Shown here piece by piece: positions 41,772 through 48,790 of a stretch of DNA of 64,000 bases; the first letter of the stretch is position 1; every line of letters begins with the position of its first letter. Position numbers and translations under genes: made by a program. The notes under the pieces were generated by a model. It had not been told where the DNA came from. It searched no databases and worked only from the letters and a program-made list of their open reading frames with translations. Source of the stretch: Synechococcus sp. PCC 7336 (GTDB taxonomy: Bacteria; Cyanobacteriota; Cyanobacteriia; Thermostichales; PCC-7336); assembly GCF_000332275.1 (NCBI RefSeq), contig NZ_CM001776.1:1907268-1971267 (forward strand). Reading direction: 5' to 3'.

Positions 41772-41969
41772 AAATGTGATATCTCGGGGACAATCGAATC
41801 AGTAAACTATGCTGCTATAGCATCCTGACTGAGCCAGACGGAGTTTAGTTCCTGGCGCTGGGTCGAGGTCGATTGGAGGCGATCGCGCTGCAATCAGCTC
41901 AAATGTCATCCCAGATACAGTTCCACCCGTTCCCCTCCCCTAAGATGCCGACCATACAGCTCTTGAGAG

Positions 41970-42070
41970 AGTGGCTTCTAGGGTTCCGAGCGATGGCGCT
42001 GTCTGGACCGAGAGAGGCAGCCGCCCAGCATCAGCTGAGGGGTGACACGGCGGGATAAAAGCCCGGGAGG
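41970..42070 (+). promoter_or_regulatory. guanidine-I (ykkC) riboswitch
   Basis: All three hallmark blocks are present in order: CTAGGGTTCCG (41978-41988), CTGGACCGAGAG (42003-42014) and ACACGGCGGGATAAAAGCCC (42045-42064) followed by GGGAG. They occur with the usual spacing and a variable stem between. This aptamer binds guanidinium and turns on expression. It lies 60 bp before the guanidine hydrolase gene, a known cyanobacterial pairing, so the whole operon is likely induced by guanidine. A GC-rich inverted element in 42098-42114 (GGCAGTTCGCCGCC) may belong to the expression platform. Confidence 0.93.
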
Positions 42071-42129
42071 ATGATGTTGGCCTACCATTGGGGTCAACGG
42101 CAGTTCGCCGCCGTCACCAGAGAACGAGC

Positions 42130-43305
42130 ATGTCCGACTTAAACGGATATTCCAACGAAGCCGAACGGGGTTTGGGGGAAGAAGCGAAGTTATCCGAAAG
42201 CGGCTGGCAGCGAGAGGTACAACGGGGGCTGGAATTTGGCCTCGAAGCCGCTGACAGCATTCGCGATCGCAGCATCCCCACCTTCTCTCGCGGCGAGCTG
42301 CCCCACTTCGCCGGCATCAATACTTTCCTCAAAGCCCCCTACGTCGAAGACGTGCGGGAAGTGGGCAACTACGATGTTGCCATCCTGGGCGTCCCCCACG
42401 ACTGCGGCACCACCTACCGCCCCGGCACCCGTTTCGGTCCCCAAGGCATTCGCCGCATCTCCGCCCTCTATACCCCCTATAACTTCGAGCTGGGGGTGGA
42501 CCTGCGGGAATCGATAACCCTGTGCGACATCGGCGATGTCTTCACCATCCCCGCCAATATCGAAAAATCCTTCGATCAGATTTCCAAAGCCGTCGCCCAC
42601 GTCTTTGCCAGCGGTGCCCTGCCCGTCATTCTGGGGGGCGATCACTCCATCGGCTATCCCACCGTGCGTGGCGTCTGCCGACATTTGGGGGATCTGAAAG
42701 TCGGCATCATCCACTTCGATCGCCACGTCGACACCCAAGAAACCGACCTGGACGAGCGCATGCACACCTGTCCCTGGTTCCACGCCACCAATATCAAAAA
42801 TGCCCCGGCTGAAAACTTGGTCCAAATGGGGATTGGTGGCTGGCAAGTACCCCGCCAAGGGGTGAAGGTATGCCGCGAGCGGGCGACCAATATCCTCACC
42901 GTCACCGACATTACCGAAATGGGACTGGATGCGGCAGCGGAGCTCGCGATCGAGAAAGCGACTGAGGGTACTGATTGCGTTTACATCAGCTTCGACATTG
43001 ACTGCATCGACGCCGGATTTGTCCCCGGTACCGGCTGGCCCGAACCCGGCGGCCTGCTACCTCGCGAAGCCTTGGGATTACTAGCCCGCATCATCCCCAG
43101 AGTGAAGGTCTGCGGTCTCGAAGTGGTGGAAGTGTCGCCCCCCTACGACATCAGCGACATTACTTCCTTAATGGCCACCCGCGTCATCTGCGACTCGCTA
43201 GCCCATATGGTGCGCTCCCAGCAGTTGCCGCGCCTGGGAGTCAAGCCCAGATTCGTCCACAACCACGCACAACCGGAACTGATTGCCGACTGGCGGGGGC
43301 GCTAA
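42130..43305 (+). CDS. gdmH: nickel-dependent guanidine hydrolase (ureohydrolase family)
   Basis: 391 aa, matching the size of Synechocystis Sll1077. It hydrolyses guanidine to ammonia and urea with a dinuclear Ni centre. Motifs: GGDHSIGYPTVRGVC, IHFDRHVDTQETDLDERMHT and SFDIDCIDAGFVPGTGWPEP. FDRHVDTQE replaces the FDAHxD of agmatinases/arginases, as in the guanidine hydrolase branch. ATG 42130 is chosen; a GTG at 42088 lies too near the riboswitch. The stop overlaps the next ATG (TAATG). Annotations as agmatinase would be wrong here, given the riboswitch and the nickel chaperones. Confidence 0.92.
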   Translation: MSDLNGYSNEAERGLGEEAKLSESGWQREVQRGLEFGLEAADSIRDRSIPTFSRGELPHFAGINTFLKAPYVEDVREVGNYDVAILGVPHDCGTTYRPGTRFGPQGIRRISALYTPYNFELGVDLRESITLCDIGDVFTIPANIEKSFDQISKAVAHVFASGALPVILGGDHSIGYPTVRGVCRHLGDLKVGIIHFDRHVDTQETDLDERMHTCPWFHATNIKNAPAENLVQMGIGGWQVPRQGVKVCRERATNILTVTDITEMGLDAAAELAIEKATEGTDCVYISFDIDCIDAGFVPGTGWPEPGGLLPREALGLLARIIPRVKVCGLEVVEVSPPYDISDITSLMATRVICDSLAHMVRSQQLPRLGVKPRFVHNHAQPELIADWRGR

Positions 43306-43694
43306 TGCACGAAGTCGATATGACCAAAGCGCTCTTCGCCACGCTGGAAGATTGGTGGGTGTCGCAGCCGGACCCCCCGGAGATCGAGACTGTTTATCTG
43401 CTGGTGGGGGATTTCACTTGCGTGGAACCCGCCAGCTTGGAATTTGCCTTTGACGCCCTCAAACAGGGTACGTTTCTGGACTCGGCTCGATTGGCGATCG
43501 AGCGCATCCCCTTTGTGGCCTACTGTCACACCTGCCAGTGCAACTATTTCCCCACCATTGAAGAACAATACGCTTGCCCCGCCTGCCGATCGCCTCTAGA
43601 GGACATCCGCTCTGGGCGGGAATTGAAAATTTCTCGGTTGGAGTGTCGGGATGCCGTTGCAGCCGAGGAACAAACGATGTGTCATTCAGGTTGA
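43305..43694 (+). CDS. ghaA: HypA-like nickel chaperone (GhaA) for guanidine hydrolase
   Basis: 129 aa. The N-terminal MHE nickel-binding triplet and two zinc Cys pairs (YCHTCQCNYF and YACPACRSPL) define the HypA fold. Stand-alone HypA usually serves NiFe hydrogenase, but none is nearby; a homologue activates guanidine hydrolase in Synechocystis. Coupled by a one-base overlap to gdmH. Confidence 0.88.
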   Translation: MHEVDMTKALFATLEDWWVSQPDPPEIETVYLLVGDFTCVEPASLEFAFDALKQGTFLDSARLAIERIPFVAYCHTCQCNYFPTIEEQYACPACRSPLEDIRSGRELKISRLECRDAVAAEEQTMCHSG

Positions 43695-43703
43695 GGGAAG
43701 CCG

Positions 43704-44402
43704 ATGCACCAAGTCATCGATATGGCAGGAGTCGATCTCCTGCAGGCCAACCAAGCCGGAGCCGATCGCAACCGGGCTCAGTTCGATCGCTGGGGCATGA
43801 CCTGTCTCAACGTCATGAGCAGTCCGGGGGCGGGCAAAACGGTGCTGCTGGAAAAGACCTTAGAGGCGTTGCGCGATCACCTGAAGATCGCCGTCATCGA
43901 AGGGGACATGACCACCCAACTGGATGCCGAGCGCCTGCGCCGCTGCGGGGTCCCCGTGATTGCCATCAACACCGGCCGATCGTGCCATCTCGATGCCCAT
44001 ATGGTAGCGGGCGGCATGCACCAGCTAGAGCGCGAGCACAGCCCAGAACAATTCGATTTAGTCTTCGTCGAAAACGTCGGCAACTTGGTCTGTCCGGCGG
44101 AATTTGAAGTGGGGGAACATGCCAAAGTGGCGCTGCTGAGCCTGACAGAGGGGGAAGACAAACCGCTCAAATATCCGGTCATGTTTCGGGAAGCAGACTG
44201 CCTGCTCGTTTCCAAACTGGATTTGGCTCCCTATCTAGAGGTCGATCTCGGCCAGATTGAAGCCAATGTGCGCCAGCTCAACCCCAACGCCAGCATCATT
44301 CCCCTATCGGCCAAATCCGGCGAGGGACTCGAACTCTGGTTCGAGTGGGTGCAGCAACAGGTCCGCAGAGTCCGATCGCAACAGCCGCAAGTGGTCCTCT
44401 AA
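43704..44402 (+). CDS. ghaB: HypB-like GTPase nickel chaperone (GhaB) for guanidine hydrolase
   Basis: 232 aa. SIMIBI GTPase: P-loop [18 protein letters not shown] (residues 39-56), switch [17 protein letters not shown], the metal-site region [11 protein letters not shown] with Cys and His, and [10 protein letters not shown] as the G4-like base-recognition element. GTP hydrolysis drives Ni insertion with the HypA partner. A good GAGGGAAG site lies upstream. It follows ghaA by 9 bp. Confidence 0.88.
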
Positions 44403-44475
44403 CTTCCCCTCGCACGAGCCTTCCGATCCTGCTAGAAACCTTTCCCCCTATGCCCTGCGCCCTCTAGGAGTATCC

Positions 44476-45483
44476 ATGAATTTTCGCAGCTTATTTCCCA
44501 CTTGCGCCCTCGCGCTGGGCCTAGCGATCGCCGGTTGCGCTCCCAGTCCCGACCCCACCGCCACCGAGCCCCTCACGATTGGTTACAGCAACTGGGCGGG
44601 CTGGTGGCCTTGGGCGATCGCCGAGCAAGAGGGCTTATTCGAGGCCAACGGTGCCCATGTGGAACTGCGCTGGTTCGATGGCTATCTTGCCTCGATGGAA
44701 GCCTTTGCTGCCGGTCAATTGGACGGTAACACCCAAACCCTCAACGACACCATTTCGTTTGTGGCCGATTCTGTGAATGGGCAAGTGGTGGTGTTGGTGA
44801 ACGATAACTCCGCAGGTAACGACAAAATTATTGTGGCGGAAGGGATCGACACGATCGAAGACCTGTTAGGCAAGCGAGTTGCTGTGGAGGAAGGGGTAGT
44901 GGATGATTTCCTGCTCACCCTCGGTTTAGAGGAGGCGGGCTACAGTCGCGACGATGTCGAAATTATGCCTTTGGAAACCGGTGCTGCCGCTGCCGCTTTT
45001 GCCGCTGGTCGGGTGGATGCCGTCGGTGCCTTTCCTCCCTTCTGGCTGACTGCGCTGGAGCGAGAGGGCAGCCGAGAGCTGTTCAGTTCTGCCGACTTCC
45101 CTGGTGCGATTCCCGATTTGCTCGTGGTCAGTCAAACGGTTATCGACGAGCAGCCCGAACAGGTGCAAGCGTTAGTGAACACCTGGTTCGACATTCTGGA
45201 ATTCATGCAGGAAAACCCCGAACGGGCGGATGAAATCATGGCCGCACGGGCTGGCGTCAGCCCGGAAGAACTACAACTGTTCAAGGAAGGCACCCGCTTT
45301 TTCACCCTTGAAGATAATCTAGAAGCCTTTAGTGAGGGAGATAGCTTCGCGTCCATGCCCTACGCCGCTGTAGAAATGGCGGCATTTATGGTGGGCATGG
45401 GCTTCATTCCCGAGGCCCCCGACCTCAGCACCCTGTTCGATCGCCGCTTTGTGGACGCCTATGCCGCATCGCTGGCGGAATGA
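44476..45483 (+). CDS. guanidine-operon ABC transporter substrate-binding lipoprotein (NMT1/SsuA-like)
   Basis: 335 aa. Lipoprotein signal with lipobox LAIAGC (about residues 16-21), then YSNWAGWWPWAIAEQEGLFE, a TauT/NitT-type binding protein start. It shows the DLLGKRVAVEEG and FLLTLGLEEAGY segments typical of that family. In the homologous sll1080-1082 cluster the transporter imports guanidine. TAGGAG sits five bases before ATG 44476; the frame is open further but inside ghaB. First of three transporter genes. Confidence 0.87.
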   Translation: MNFRSLFPTCALALGLAIAGCAPSPDPTATEPLTIGYSNWAGWWPWAIAEQEGLFEANGAHVELRWFDGYLASMEAFAAGQLDGNTQTLNDTISFVADSVNGQVVVLVNDNSAGNDKIIVAEGIDTIEDLLGKRVAVEEGVVDDFLLTLGLEEAGYSRDDVEIMPLETGAAAAAFAAGRVDAVGAFPPFWLTALEREGSRELFSSADFPGAIPDLLVVSQTVIDEQPEQVQALVNTWFDILEFMQENPERADEIMAARAGVSPEELQLFKEGTRFFTLEDNLEAFSEGDSFASMPYAAVEMAAFMVGMGFIPEAPDLSTLFDRRFVDAYAASLAE

Positions 45484-45560
45484 GCGATCGCCCAACCATT
45501 GCTTGAGGTGTCAAATCCCGACTGGCACCTTTAATCGAGTTCCCTTCCCCCACTGCCATC

Positions 45561-46400
45561 GTGACGACCCATCCCTTCGCAGGCTCCGCTAGCGACTCCC
45601 GCCCCAGCCTGAAGCCAACGGTGTTCTGGCGAATTGCCGAAGACATTCCCAAGCCCCTGCAGTGGAGCTTGGCCCTGCTATCCATCTTTGTACCCTTTAG
45701 CTTGTGGTGGTTAATGGCCAGCACGGGTTGGGTGAATTCCCAGTTTTTGCCTTCCCCTGCCGATGTGGGTCGGGCCTTTGTGCGGCTGTGGGAACAAGGA
45801 TTTTTACTCAAAGACATCGCGGCCAGCTTTTTAAGGGTGTCGAGTGGATTTATCTTAGCGGCGATCGCGGCCATCCCCATCGGCATCAGTATGGGTACCT
45901 TCGCCAGCATTCGCTCCTTAGCCGAACCCATCATCGGCATCTTCCGCTATATGCCCGCCCCCGCCTTCATTCCGCTACTGATTATTTATCTGGGACTAGA
46001 CGAACCCCCGAAAATTGCCTTGATCTTTATTGGCACCGTGTTTTTCAACACCCTGATGATCGCAGACGCTGTCAAGTTCATCCCCAAACAATTGATTGAG
46101 GCGACCTACACTTTGGGGGGGGCCAGAGTGCAAGTGCTCTTCCGCGTCATCGCCCCCTATATCGCCCCCAACATCCTCGATGCCTTTCGCATCAACATGG
46201 CAGCAGCTTGGAACCTCGTCGTCGTAGCCGAGCTCGTGGCTGCTAACGAAGGTTTGGGCAAGCGCATTCAATTGGCTCAACGTTTTTTCCATACCGATGA
46301 AATTTTCGCCTGTCTGATTGTTTTGGGCACGATCGGGTTCTTACTCGACTTAACCCTGCAATGGATAATGCGGCTTACCTGTAAATGGGCAATTGACTGA
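45561..46400 (+). CDS. guanidine-operon ABC transporter permease
   Basis: 279 aa, six membrane spans. The EAA-type cytoplasmic loop EATYTLGGARVQVLFRVIAP matches the binding-protein-dependent permease signature (usual form EAAxxxGAxxxxxxxxIxLP), with NLVVVAELVAANEGLG after it. It starts with GTG. Its 3' end runs close to the ATPase gene, as usual for such modules. Confidence 0.87.
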   Translation: MTTHPFAGSASDSRPSLKPTVFWRIAEDIPKPLQWSLALLSIFVPFSLWWLMASTGWVNSQFLPSPADVGRAFVRLWEQGFLLKDIAASFLRVSSGFILAAIAAIPIGISMGTFASIRSLAEPIIGIFRYMPAPAFIPLLIIYLGLDEPPKIALIFIGTVFFNTLMIADAVKFIPKQLIEATYTLGGARVQVLFRVIAPYIAPNILDAFRINMAAAWNLVVVAELVAANEGLGKRIQLAQRFFHTDEIFACLIVLGTIGFLLDLTLQWIMRLTCKWAID

Positions 46401-46428
46401 CGTTCAGTTCTTATCTCCTCGTTCTGCC

Positions 46429-47205
46429 ATGCACCTAAAAGTCAGACAGCTCTGCAAATCATTTCCCACCCGCAGAAGGGGACAGTTTGTCGCCCTCGAC
46501 AACATCAATTTGCAGGTAGAAACGGGAGAATTAGTCTGCATTGTGGGGGCGTCGGGCTCGGGGAAAACCACCTTACTGCGACTGATTGCGGGTTTGGAAG
46601 CTCCGACGAGTGGCGAGATTGCTGTGGATGGGATGCCAGTCTTGGGGCCGGGGGCCGATCGCGGCATGGTGTTCCAAAGCTATACGCTATATCCCTGGAT
46701 GACGGTGGCGGCGAATGTGGGGTTCGGACTCAAGTTGCAGGGAATGCCTTTGCTGGAGCGGGAGGGGCGGATTGCCTATTTCTTGGAGGTGGTAGGACTG
46801 ACAAAGTTTGCCAAGGCGTTGCCGAAGGAACTGTCGGGAGGAATGAAGCAACGGGTGGCGATCGCCCGCGCGCTAGCCAATCAACCGAAGATCCTGTTAA
46901 TGGACGAACCCTTTGGGGCATTGGATGCCCAGACGAAGGAAATCATGCAGGGCTTTTTGCGGGAAGTGTGGCAGCGGACGGGCACCAGTATTTTGATGAT
47001 TACCCACGATGTGGAAGAGGCTGTTTTTGTCGCTCAACGAGTCTACGTGCTCACCTCTTCCCCCGGTCGCGTTAAAAAAGAAGTAAAAGTGTTGTTGCCG
47101 GAAGAACGGGAATTTGGCCTCAAGCGTATGCCCAGCTTTCAGCAGCAGGAAGAAGATATCCTCGAACTCCTGCGGGAGGAGCAGAAAAAAGCGTTGCAAC
47201 TTTAG
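46429..47205 (+). CDS. guanidine-operon ABC transporter ATP-binding protein
   Basis: 258 aa. Walker A GASGSGKTTLLR, Q-loop VFQSYTLYPWM, signature LSGGMKQRVAIARAL, Walker B ILLMDEPFGALD, D-loop and H-loop ITHDVEEAV all present: the NitT/TauT-type ATPase. ATG 46429 is chosen; a TTG 12 codons earlier would overlap the permease gene by 8 bp and cannot be excluded. It is the last recognisable gene of the operon. Confidence 0.88.
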   Translation: MHLKVRQLCKSFPTRRRGQFVALDNINLQVETGELVCIVGASGSGKTTLLRLIAGLEAPTSGEIAVDGMPVLGPGADRGMVFQSYTLYPWMTVAANVGFGLKLQGMPLLEREGRIAYFLEVVGLTKFAKALPKELSGGMKQRVAIARALANQPKILLMDEPFGALDAQTKEIMQGFLREVWQRTGTSILMITHDVEEAVFVAQRVYVLTSSPGRVKKEVKVLLPEEREFGLKRMPSFQQQEEDILELLREEQKKALQL

Positions 47206-47208
47206 AGT

Positions 47209-47415
47209 TTGGGCGATCGTCAAATACAATGCTTGGCTAAAACCATCTCTACACCATTACATGTGGAGTTACAAAAATTCTCATACGCTAGATATGGCAA
47301 TATAATAGTGATATTATCCTCTCAAGTTCAGCCACAATATGTCCAGTATGCTTGTACGATAGGAAACATTTGGCAGGCTACGATGATTCCAATCAGAGGT
47401 AGGTATAAATGGTAG
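47209..47415 (+). CDS. possible short reading frame, AT-rich, unknown
   Basis: TTG-started frame of 68 codons. The second part (HVELQKFSYARYGNIIVILS and VQYACTIGNIWQATMIPIRG, ending RYKW) has protein-like composition and ends across the start of the next gene (ATGGTAG). The 5' part is poor and may be chance. Possibly the 3' remnant of a gene broken when this AT-rich segment joined the guanidine operon. No family recognised. Confidence 0.35.
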   Translation: MGDRQIQCLAKTISTPLHVELQKFSYARYGNIIVILSSQVQPQYVQYACTIGNIWQATMIPIRGRYKW

Positions 47416-47763
47416 TCCCTTTTCGTGAACGGTTAGTGGCTCTCAGCTGCTTCATAGCTCCTGCAGCATTTTCTGGAGAGCGCATATTTTAAAGTAAAAC
47501 TAGCCAATGGTGAATCTTACACAAGCCTAGCTCCGCGACAATTTTGTTGGAATCGCGATGGTCATCTGGTAGGCAAAGATGAACCAAATGATGAAGTTGA
47601 AGGAAAGGTTGCAGCCCGAATTGTTGATGTTATTGATGACACACAAACAATTATCGAAGTCCCTGACGGTGAAATTATTGCCGTCGATCGATCGACTATA
47701 TCAGAACGACCTACTGCCATTACACCTCCTGAGGTGAAAGATCGTGTACCTGTCCGATCGTGA
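47409..47763 (+). pseudogene. frameshifted small gene overlapping the dCTP deaminase gene
   Basis: ATG 47409 (with GAGGTAGG upstream) encodes MVVPFRERLVALSCFIAPAA FSGERIF and then hits TAA. Removing one T from the T4 run at 47487-47490 restores a single 117-aa protein continuing KVKLANGESYTSLAPRQFCW, EPNDEVEGKVAARIVDVIDD and VPDGEIIAVDRSTI, ending with TGA 47761-47763. The total is 3n+1. I do not recognise the family. It overlaps the dcd-like gene by 20 bp, so the two were translationally coupled. Confidence 0.7.
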
Positions 47764-48373
47764 CTTGAAGTTTGCTGTTGAAACAGGTCAGTTGATAGTC
47801 GATCCCAAACCAGAAGAATACGATACAACCTCTATTGACCTTCATCTAGATGATGTCAGTGAAGCAAAGGTATGGAACGTAGATGCGTTTAAGCAAAAAC
47901 AGGAGGAGTCGGGCAGCGATGCGTGGTTGCGAGTTGGAAAATATAAGTATAGAGCTTTTTCAAGGTTATTTTATAAGAGTGTTCCAACACATCCTAATGA
48001 TAACGATCTAGTCTATCGGAATGGAGATCGAGTGATCCTTAAACCAAAAGGGTTTCTCTTATGGCAGACGCGGGAATCTGTGGGAACACCTGAAACCGAT
48101 CCTCGATTAATTTGTTTTATTAATGGTAAGAGTTCATCCGCCCGGTCTGGATTGTTAGTTCACACGACTGCACCAACGATACATGCTAGATGGTGGGGGC
48201 AAATTACTTTAGAAATTGCAAACCTTGGCCCTTTTGATTTGTGCTTAGGCGCAGGTGATGCGATCTCTCAAATTGTTGTCGCAACCATTTCTAGTCCACC
48301 CACCAAACGTAAGAAAGAGGGAATTGCCATTGGTCAACGAGAAGTTGGCGGTAATGCTGGTTCCAGAGACTAG
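47744..48373 (+). CDS. dCTP deaminase / dUTPase-like protein
   Basis: 209 aa. Dcd fold: YLSDRDLKFAVETGQLIVDP at the N-terminus and the core NGKSSSARSGLLVHTTAPTI, then WWGQITLEIANLGPFDL, whose Glu in QITLE corresponds to the deaminase catalytic Glu, and LGAGDAISQIVV. It should convert dCTP to dUTP, or be a related dUTPase. Base composition is more AT-rich than the flanking genes, and it forms a pair with a small gene, both signs of an acquired module. Housekeeping versus accessory (anti-phage nucleotide depletion) cannot be settled here. Confidence 0.82.
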   Translation: MYLSDRDLKFAVETGQLIVDPKPEEYDTTSIDLHLDDVSEAKVWNVDAFKQKQEESGSDAWLRVGKYKYRAFSRLFYKSVPTHPNDNDLVYRNGDRVILKPKGFLLWQTRESVGTPETDPRLICFINGKSSSARSGLLVHTTAPTIHARWWGQITLEIANLGPFDLCLGAGDAISQIVVATISSPPTKRKKEGIAIGQREVGGNAGSRD

Positions 48374-48394
48374 CTTTTTGCTACTCTACATTTT

Positions 48395-48790
48395 TTAATC
48401 ATCTCTTAGGAAAGAAGTGTCACAAACTTGCAAGATCTCCTGCAGACGATCGCCATCTTGCAAATACAAATATCCCAATAACGCCTCAAACCCACTCGCG
48501 GCACGATAAATCTCGGGGCTGACGCGGCGGGGAATGCTACCGCAATTGTTGCGACCTCGCTGTACGATCGCCTGCTCGGCATCCGATAGCGTCGGGGCGA
48601 TCGAGGCCAGCGTTTTGGCTTGAGCTTCTGCCTGCACGCAAGCGACCACGGCACGATGGTACGCCTGCAGGCGCTGGGGCGGGATTAATAGCGATCGCCG
48701 CACGTGTAACTCGTAAACCGCATCCCCTAAATAAGCCAATGCGGCTGGCGACAGCCGTTTGATATCGATGGACGGAGCGTCCCCAGTCAT
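48395..48790 (-). CDS. mrnC: mini-ribonuclease III
   Basis: 131 aa. A single RNase III catalytic domain without a dsRNA-binding domain: LSPAALAYLGDAVYELHVRR carries the signature Asp, and YRAASGFEALLGYLYL carries the second conserved Glu. Mini-III matures 23S rRNA ends by cutting paired precursor termini. It is convergent with the dcd-like gene (22 bp between stops). Confidence 0.93.
   Translation of the reverse strand: MTGDAPSIDIKRLSPAALAYLGDAVYELHVRRSLLIPPQRLQAYHRAVVACVQAEAQAKTLASIAPTLSDAEQAIVQRGRNNCGSIPRRVSPEIYRAASGFEALLGYLYLQDGDRLQEILQVCDTSFLRDD

Follow-up and report, generated by a model that had tools for sequence, protein, structure and literature searches.

A frameshifted small gene overlaps an accessory dCTP-deaminase-like gene in Synechococcus sp. 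PCC 7336

Two described systems come closest to the locus considered here. AvcID is a type III toxin-antitoxin system consisting of a deoxycytidylate deaminase toxin, AvcD, and an RNA antitoxin, AvcI (PMC10511110), and Clover combines the dGTPase CloA with its regulator CloB (PMC12265719). The locus in Synechococcus sp. PCC 7336 resembles AvcID in that a deoxycytidine-nucleotide deaminase lies in a two-part accessory locus. However, PADLOC and Pfam scans assign the enzyme to a different family, the partner is a protein-coding gene that, to judge from its substitutions, is under purifying selection, the two genes overlap, and the DNA upstream of the pair is poorly conserved between this locus and its one close relative. 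A search of the locus against Rfam found no match that could represent an RNA antitoxin like AvcI beside the deaminase gene. The AvcD-type analogy drawn in the first-pass annotation is therefore not upheld, as far as tested: the enzyme is of the Dcd/trimeric dUTPase family, its neighbour encodes a protein, and PADLOC matches are lacking. Clover, in which a dNTP-pool enzyme is joined to a regulating partner, as is proposed here, is the better analogy of logic, without implied homology. The two share no domains, as the present pair has neither an HD-domain dGTPase nor a nucleotidyltransferase.

The stretch of DNA analysed (64,000 nucleotides, hereafter the window) is part of a single-contig, 5.07-Mb cyanobacterial genome. 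Its compact two-gene unit (Table 1) is preceded by an ABC-transporter ATPase gene (46393-47205) and followed by a small gene in convergent orientation (48395-48790, minus strand). The deaminase start is surrounded by a 10-bp inverted repeat that the relative lacks, and this region shows no more tendency to fold than shuffled sequences do. Further upstream, positions 41967-47205 have the appearance of an operon for a guanidine hydrolase and guanidine uptake: a Guanidine-I riboswitch precedes a ureohydrolase-like gene, HypA/HypB-like genes and an ABC set of substrate-binding protein, permease and ATPase.

Table 1. Features of the two-gene unit, in window coordinates
Feature	Position	Strand	Basis or remark
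Promoter-like site, TTCTCA-17-TATAAT, 10/12	47278..47306	+	Consensus scan only; 5 sites found against 2.6 expected by chance
Small gene, 5' part: ATG 47409, AGAGG/AGG upstream, 27 codons, premature TAA 47490-47492	47409..47492	+	
T run at the frame change, one base longer than the relative's aligned run	47487..47490	+	DNA alignment
Small gene, 3' part, in the next frame; ends inside the deaminase gene (TGA 47761-47763)	47491..47763	+	
dCTP-deaminase-like gene, 209 aa, GTG start, accessory Dcd, TAPTIHA motif	47744..48373	+	
Intrinsic-terminator-like hairpin and T run at the deaminase gene end	48356..48381	+	Consensus scan; 1 found against 1.2 expected

Among 84,980 species genomes scanned, one close relative of the deaminase was found, in the metagenome-assembled genome (MAG) Aphanocapsa sp. 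GSE-SYN-MK-11-07L (locus L008), where the protein is 82% identical to the window copy. Directly upstream of it lies an intact gene for a 117-aa protein, so that the possibility raised in the first-pass annotation, that the restored small protein would have no homologues, does not hold. Gene order and overlap are alike at the two loci (14 nt in Aphanocapsa, 20 nt in the window), but the flanks are unrelated, with frr upstream in Aphanocapsa and ABC transporter genes in the window. The small gene has thus been seen at two loci only, one of them in a MAG. The genome-contig scan was seeded by exact peptides and, by our estimate, does not pick up proteins less than roughly 60-70% identical; the pair may thus be more widespread than these finds show.

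The Aphanocapsa protein is also what explains the small gene in the window. In tblastn, its residues 1-28 match window positions 47412-47489 (54% identity, E 2.7e-4) and its residues 28-108 match 47488-47730 (65% identity, E 1.7e-32); the two matches lie in adjacent frames that meet at the T run. When the DNA of the two small genes is aligned, a single 1-nt length difference is present, at this same run. This homology to an intact protein is the decisive evidence, at the level of sequence comparison, for a frameshifted small gene. The frame after the shift is open from 47458 to its TGA, and only 23 of 20,000 composition shuffles keep it open that long. ATG and TTG are absent from it, and its sole GTG (47734) is near its end, so it has no independent start from a common start codon. 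Substitutions relative to Aphanocapsa are concentrated at third codon positions on both sides of the shift (7/6/18 at positions 1/2/3 before it, 19/19/45 after it). Rough dN/dS values, with synonymous sites near saturation, are 0.05 for the deaminase gene and about 0.15-0.20 for the small gene, whose part after the shift has about 0.17-0.20; by these measures both genes are under purifying selection. As no second lesion was seen in the small gene, either the shift happened recently or some slip still yields the product. The first-pass description of a small gene frameshifted at a run of four T and overlapping the deaminase gene was exact in its coordinates and is confirmed at the level of the sequence.

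The larger protein gives a full-length match to the Dcd family (E. coli and M. tuberculosis structures 1xs1 and 2qlp). It matches PF22769 over residues 3-181 (E 2.3e-22, 80.2 bits against a gathering cut-off of 27), and its Pfam matches are to DCD and dUTPase only; by these profiles it is a member of the Dcd/trimeric dUTPase superfamily. Against TIGR02274 (E 9.2e-26) it scores 90.6 bits, below the equivalog cut-off of 92.8, whereas its Aphanocapsa orthologue scores 98.3. In an alignment with E. coli Dcd, the GKSS..AR motif, TA and the catalytic-type Glu of ITLE are kept. The active-site Ser, Arg, Ala and Glu are thus present, the first Arg of GRSSLAR is replaced by Lys, and the Asp of IDPG by His (TIHA); the roles of these residues are those we take Dcd enzymes in general to have. 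The protein most likely converts dCTP to dUTP, as predicted from its family and conserved residues, although loss of the IDPGF Asp means that its activity may differ. It also has a longer insertion around residues 38-90 than other members of the family. The TAPTIHA sequence, in place of TA.RIDPG, is common to the window deaminase and Dcd-like proteins of two other cyanobacteria. AlphaFold models of the two proteins of the unit were unusable (pLDDT 38 and 33), probably due to the lack of a deep alignment.

Four DCD-family genes are present in the genome: the window copy, a canonical Dcd that scores above the TIGR02274 cut-off (L002), a dUTPase-like gene (L003) and a membrane-type DCD protein (L004). 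The first-pass annotation had linked a housekeeping role to the case of a single dcd in the genome; the window copy is not the only one, and the separate canonical gene marks it as accessory. The Aphanocapsa accessory copy is only about 23% identical to the canonical Dcd of the window genome. Between the two genomes, the accessory Dcds are 82% identical and the canonical ones 70%. The membrane-type protein belongs to another gene pair, outside the window (L004:353-2361, genome C1 about 4130479-4132487), in which an adenylosuccinate-synthetase-like gene (PF00709, E 2e-41) overlaps the gene for this 333-aa DCD-domain protein with a likely membrane segment. No PADLOC match was found for that pair, which is a possible nucleotide-based conflict system.

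The composition of the two-gene unit differs from that of its surroundings. Its GC content is 43.9%, whereas 34 long frames from the window have 56.5% (sd 2.8%). Its GC3 is 24-35%; the ABC gene upstream of it and the canonical dcd have 64-67%. In Aphanocapsa, the pair has a GC3 of 32-36% against about 55-60% for its neighbours. An AT-rich deaminase had been noted from the start, and these figures extend the observation to both genes and both hosts. In overlapping draws of 386, 388 and 378 cyanobacterial genomes, an intact window-type deaminase was found only in this genome and in one that, to judge from its identical contig number and coordinates, is apparently the Aphanocapsa genome. A third cyanobacterium (G473, complete genome) carries a 47-aa relic of the deaminase with 79% identity, near a transposase-like fragment (L019:1504-1644, minus strand). 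A search of the relic locus found no trace of the small gene, and the sole other DCD/dUTPase-family match in that genome is a dUTPase-sized ORF. Taken together, composition, context and distribution suggest a rare two-gene unit that was probably acquired horizontally, and they point to horizontal spread with repeated loss.

The small protein, 117 aa when intact, is by the searches made here of a family outside the libraries searched. Nothing significant was found in Pfam, NCBIfam, PADLOC, PHROGs or the PDB (a weak eIF-1a match had an E of 0.11), no internal repeat was significant, and no relatives beyond the Aphanocapsa protein were found in plasmids, phages, IMG/VR or 386 cyanobacterial genomes. 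Weak matches at L006 and L046-L048 were judged to be chance, with L046, L047 and L006 lying in or beside unrelated ORFs. Among plasmid Dcds (27-35% identity), a start-overlapping small gene is not listed where records are annotated, and several records are barely annotated. A similar layout was observed at L018:910-1872, where a small ORF of no recognised family (P0006) lies 6 nt upstream of a TAPTIHAG-type Dcd-like gene. P0006 resembles the small protein on inspection but was rejected as its homologue: hhalign gave a probability of 0.1%, and 587 of 2000 shuffles scored as high.

Several explanations can be considered for these observations. The frame change may not be a loss at all, if it is an assembly error or if a +1 translational slip on TTT-T yields the full protein. 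The post-shift part, still coding-like and free of further lesions, would fit this, and the TTT TAA context permits cognate +1 re-pairing. However, the DNA alignment shows that the relative lacks such a site, a prfB-like Shine-Dalgarno sequence at short spacing is absent, and an assembly error is improbable in a run of only four T in a single-contig genome; a preserved product is accordingly considered unlikely. The pair could also be an accessory nucleotide-metabolism cassette from a phage or mobile element, in which the deaminase would contribute to the supply of dUTP/dTTP, with the small protein either a bystander or a helper in assembly. Dcd-family proteins are encoded in phage records, including those of haloarchaeal viruses, where they are next to thymidylate synthase, and by cyanophages (PMC6293099). 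The foreign composition of the pair adds to this, as does genome G480, where a TIHAG-type Dcd is the only Dcd found, together with a dUTPase-sized match. Nevertheless, no close relative of either gene was found on any phage, plasmid or IMG/VR contig, and no integrase or phage genes were seen beside the window or Aphanocapsa copy. Such an origin has a somewhat better chance than a preserved product, while still being the less expected outcome.

Other explanations assign the pair a role in conflict. As an anti-phage nucleotide-depletion module, its deaminase would drain dCTP on infection, with the small protein as a sensor or restraint, and the system would have been inactivated in this lineage. 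This is consistent with a unit that is accessory, AT-rich, sparse and decaying in two genomes, and nucleotide-pool effectors with a regulating partner do exist (Clover, PMC12265719; AvcID, PMC10511110). On the other hand, no PADLOC model matches either protein (E<=1), neither copy was seen to have defence genes as neighbours, and AvcD, the deaminase toxin known from defence, is under the control of an RNA (PMC10511110). A defensive role is therefore doubtful, to about the same degree as a product preserved by slippage or hidden by misassembly. The layout of the locus has a further reading, in which the small upstream protein is an antitoxin to a toxic deaminase. A small first gene, overlapping genes and a sparse distribution are typical of toxin-antitoxin pairs, and all three are seen here. 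It speaks against this reading that the presumed antitoxin is the broken part and the deaminase frame the intact one; selection would then act against a strong toxin, unless its translation drops with the lost coupling. It is the least probable of the explanations considered.

The explanation preferred here, with moderate confidence, is that of a compact two-gene operon, accessory and probably acquired horizontally, which encodes a small partner or regulator and a dCTP-deaminase-like enzyme and whose partner has been lost in this genome by frameshift. The overlap and order of the genes point to a flow of translation from the small gene into the deaminase gene, and the conservation of the pair in two unrelated contexts suggests that the two proteins work together. 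The small gene would be translated first, coupled to translation of the deaminase, and its product would bind to the enzyme and determine how active or how specific it is. The enzyme, if it acts as its family and conserved residues predict, would deaminate dCTP to dUTP and so shift the pyrimidine dNTP pool. The 1-nt frameshift would then remove the small protein, leaving an intact enzyme that is unregulated, idle or on its way to loss. The earlier proposal of a two-gene accessory module, now broken, is in line with the homologue beside dcd in Aphanocapsa, the second dcd in the genome and the frameshift itself. A bolder version, in which the 117-aa protein founds a new regulator family for dUTPase-fold deaminases and the pair is a new nucleotide-pool defence or regulatory module, spreading in cyanobacteria and repeatedly lost, is speculative and ranks below the cassette and defence readings in probability.

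In summary, the small gene is a clear example of a gene that annotation by open frames would overlook. As it stands, the locus presents an accessory Dcd with a dedicated, previously undescribed partner gene. If the small protein controls the deaminase, it would represent a new way to regulate Dcd, the enzyme at the branch to dTTP, and the pair would join AvcD as a second type of nucleotide-pool module built on a deaminase.
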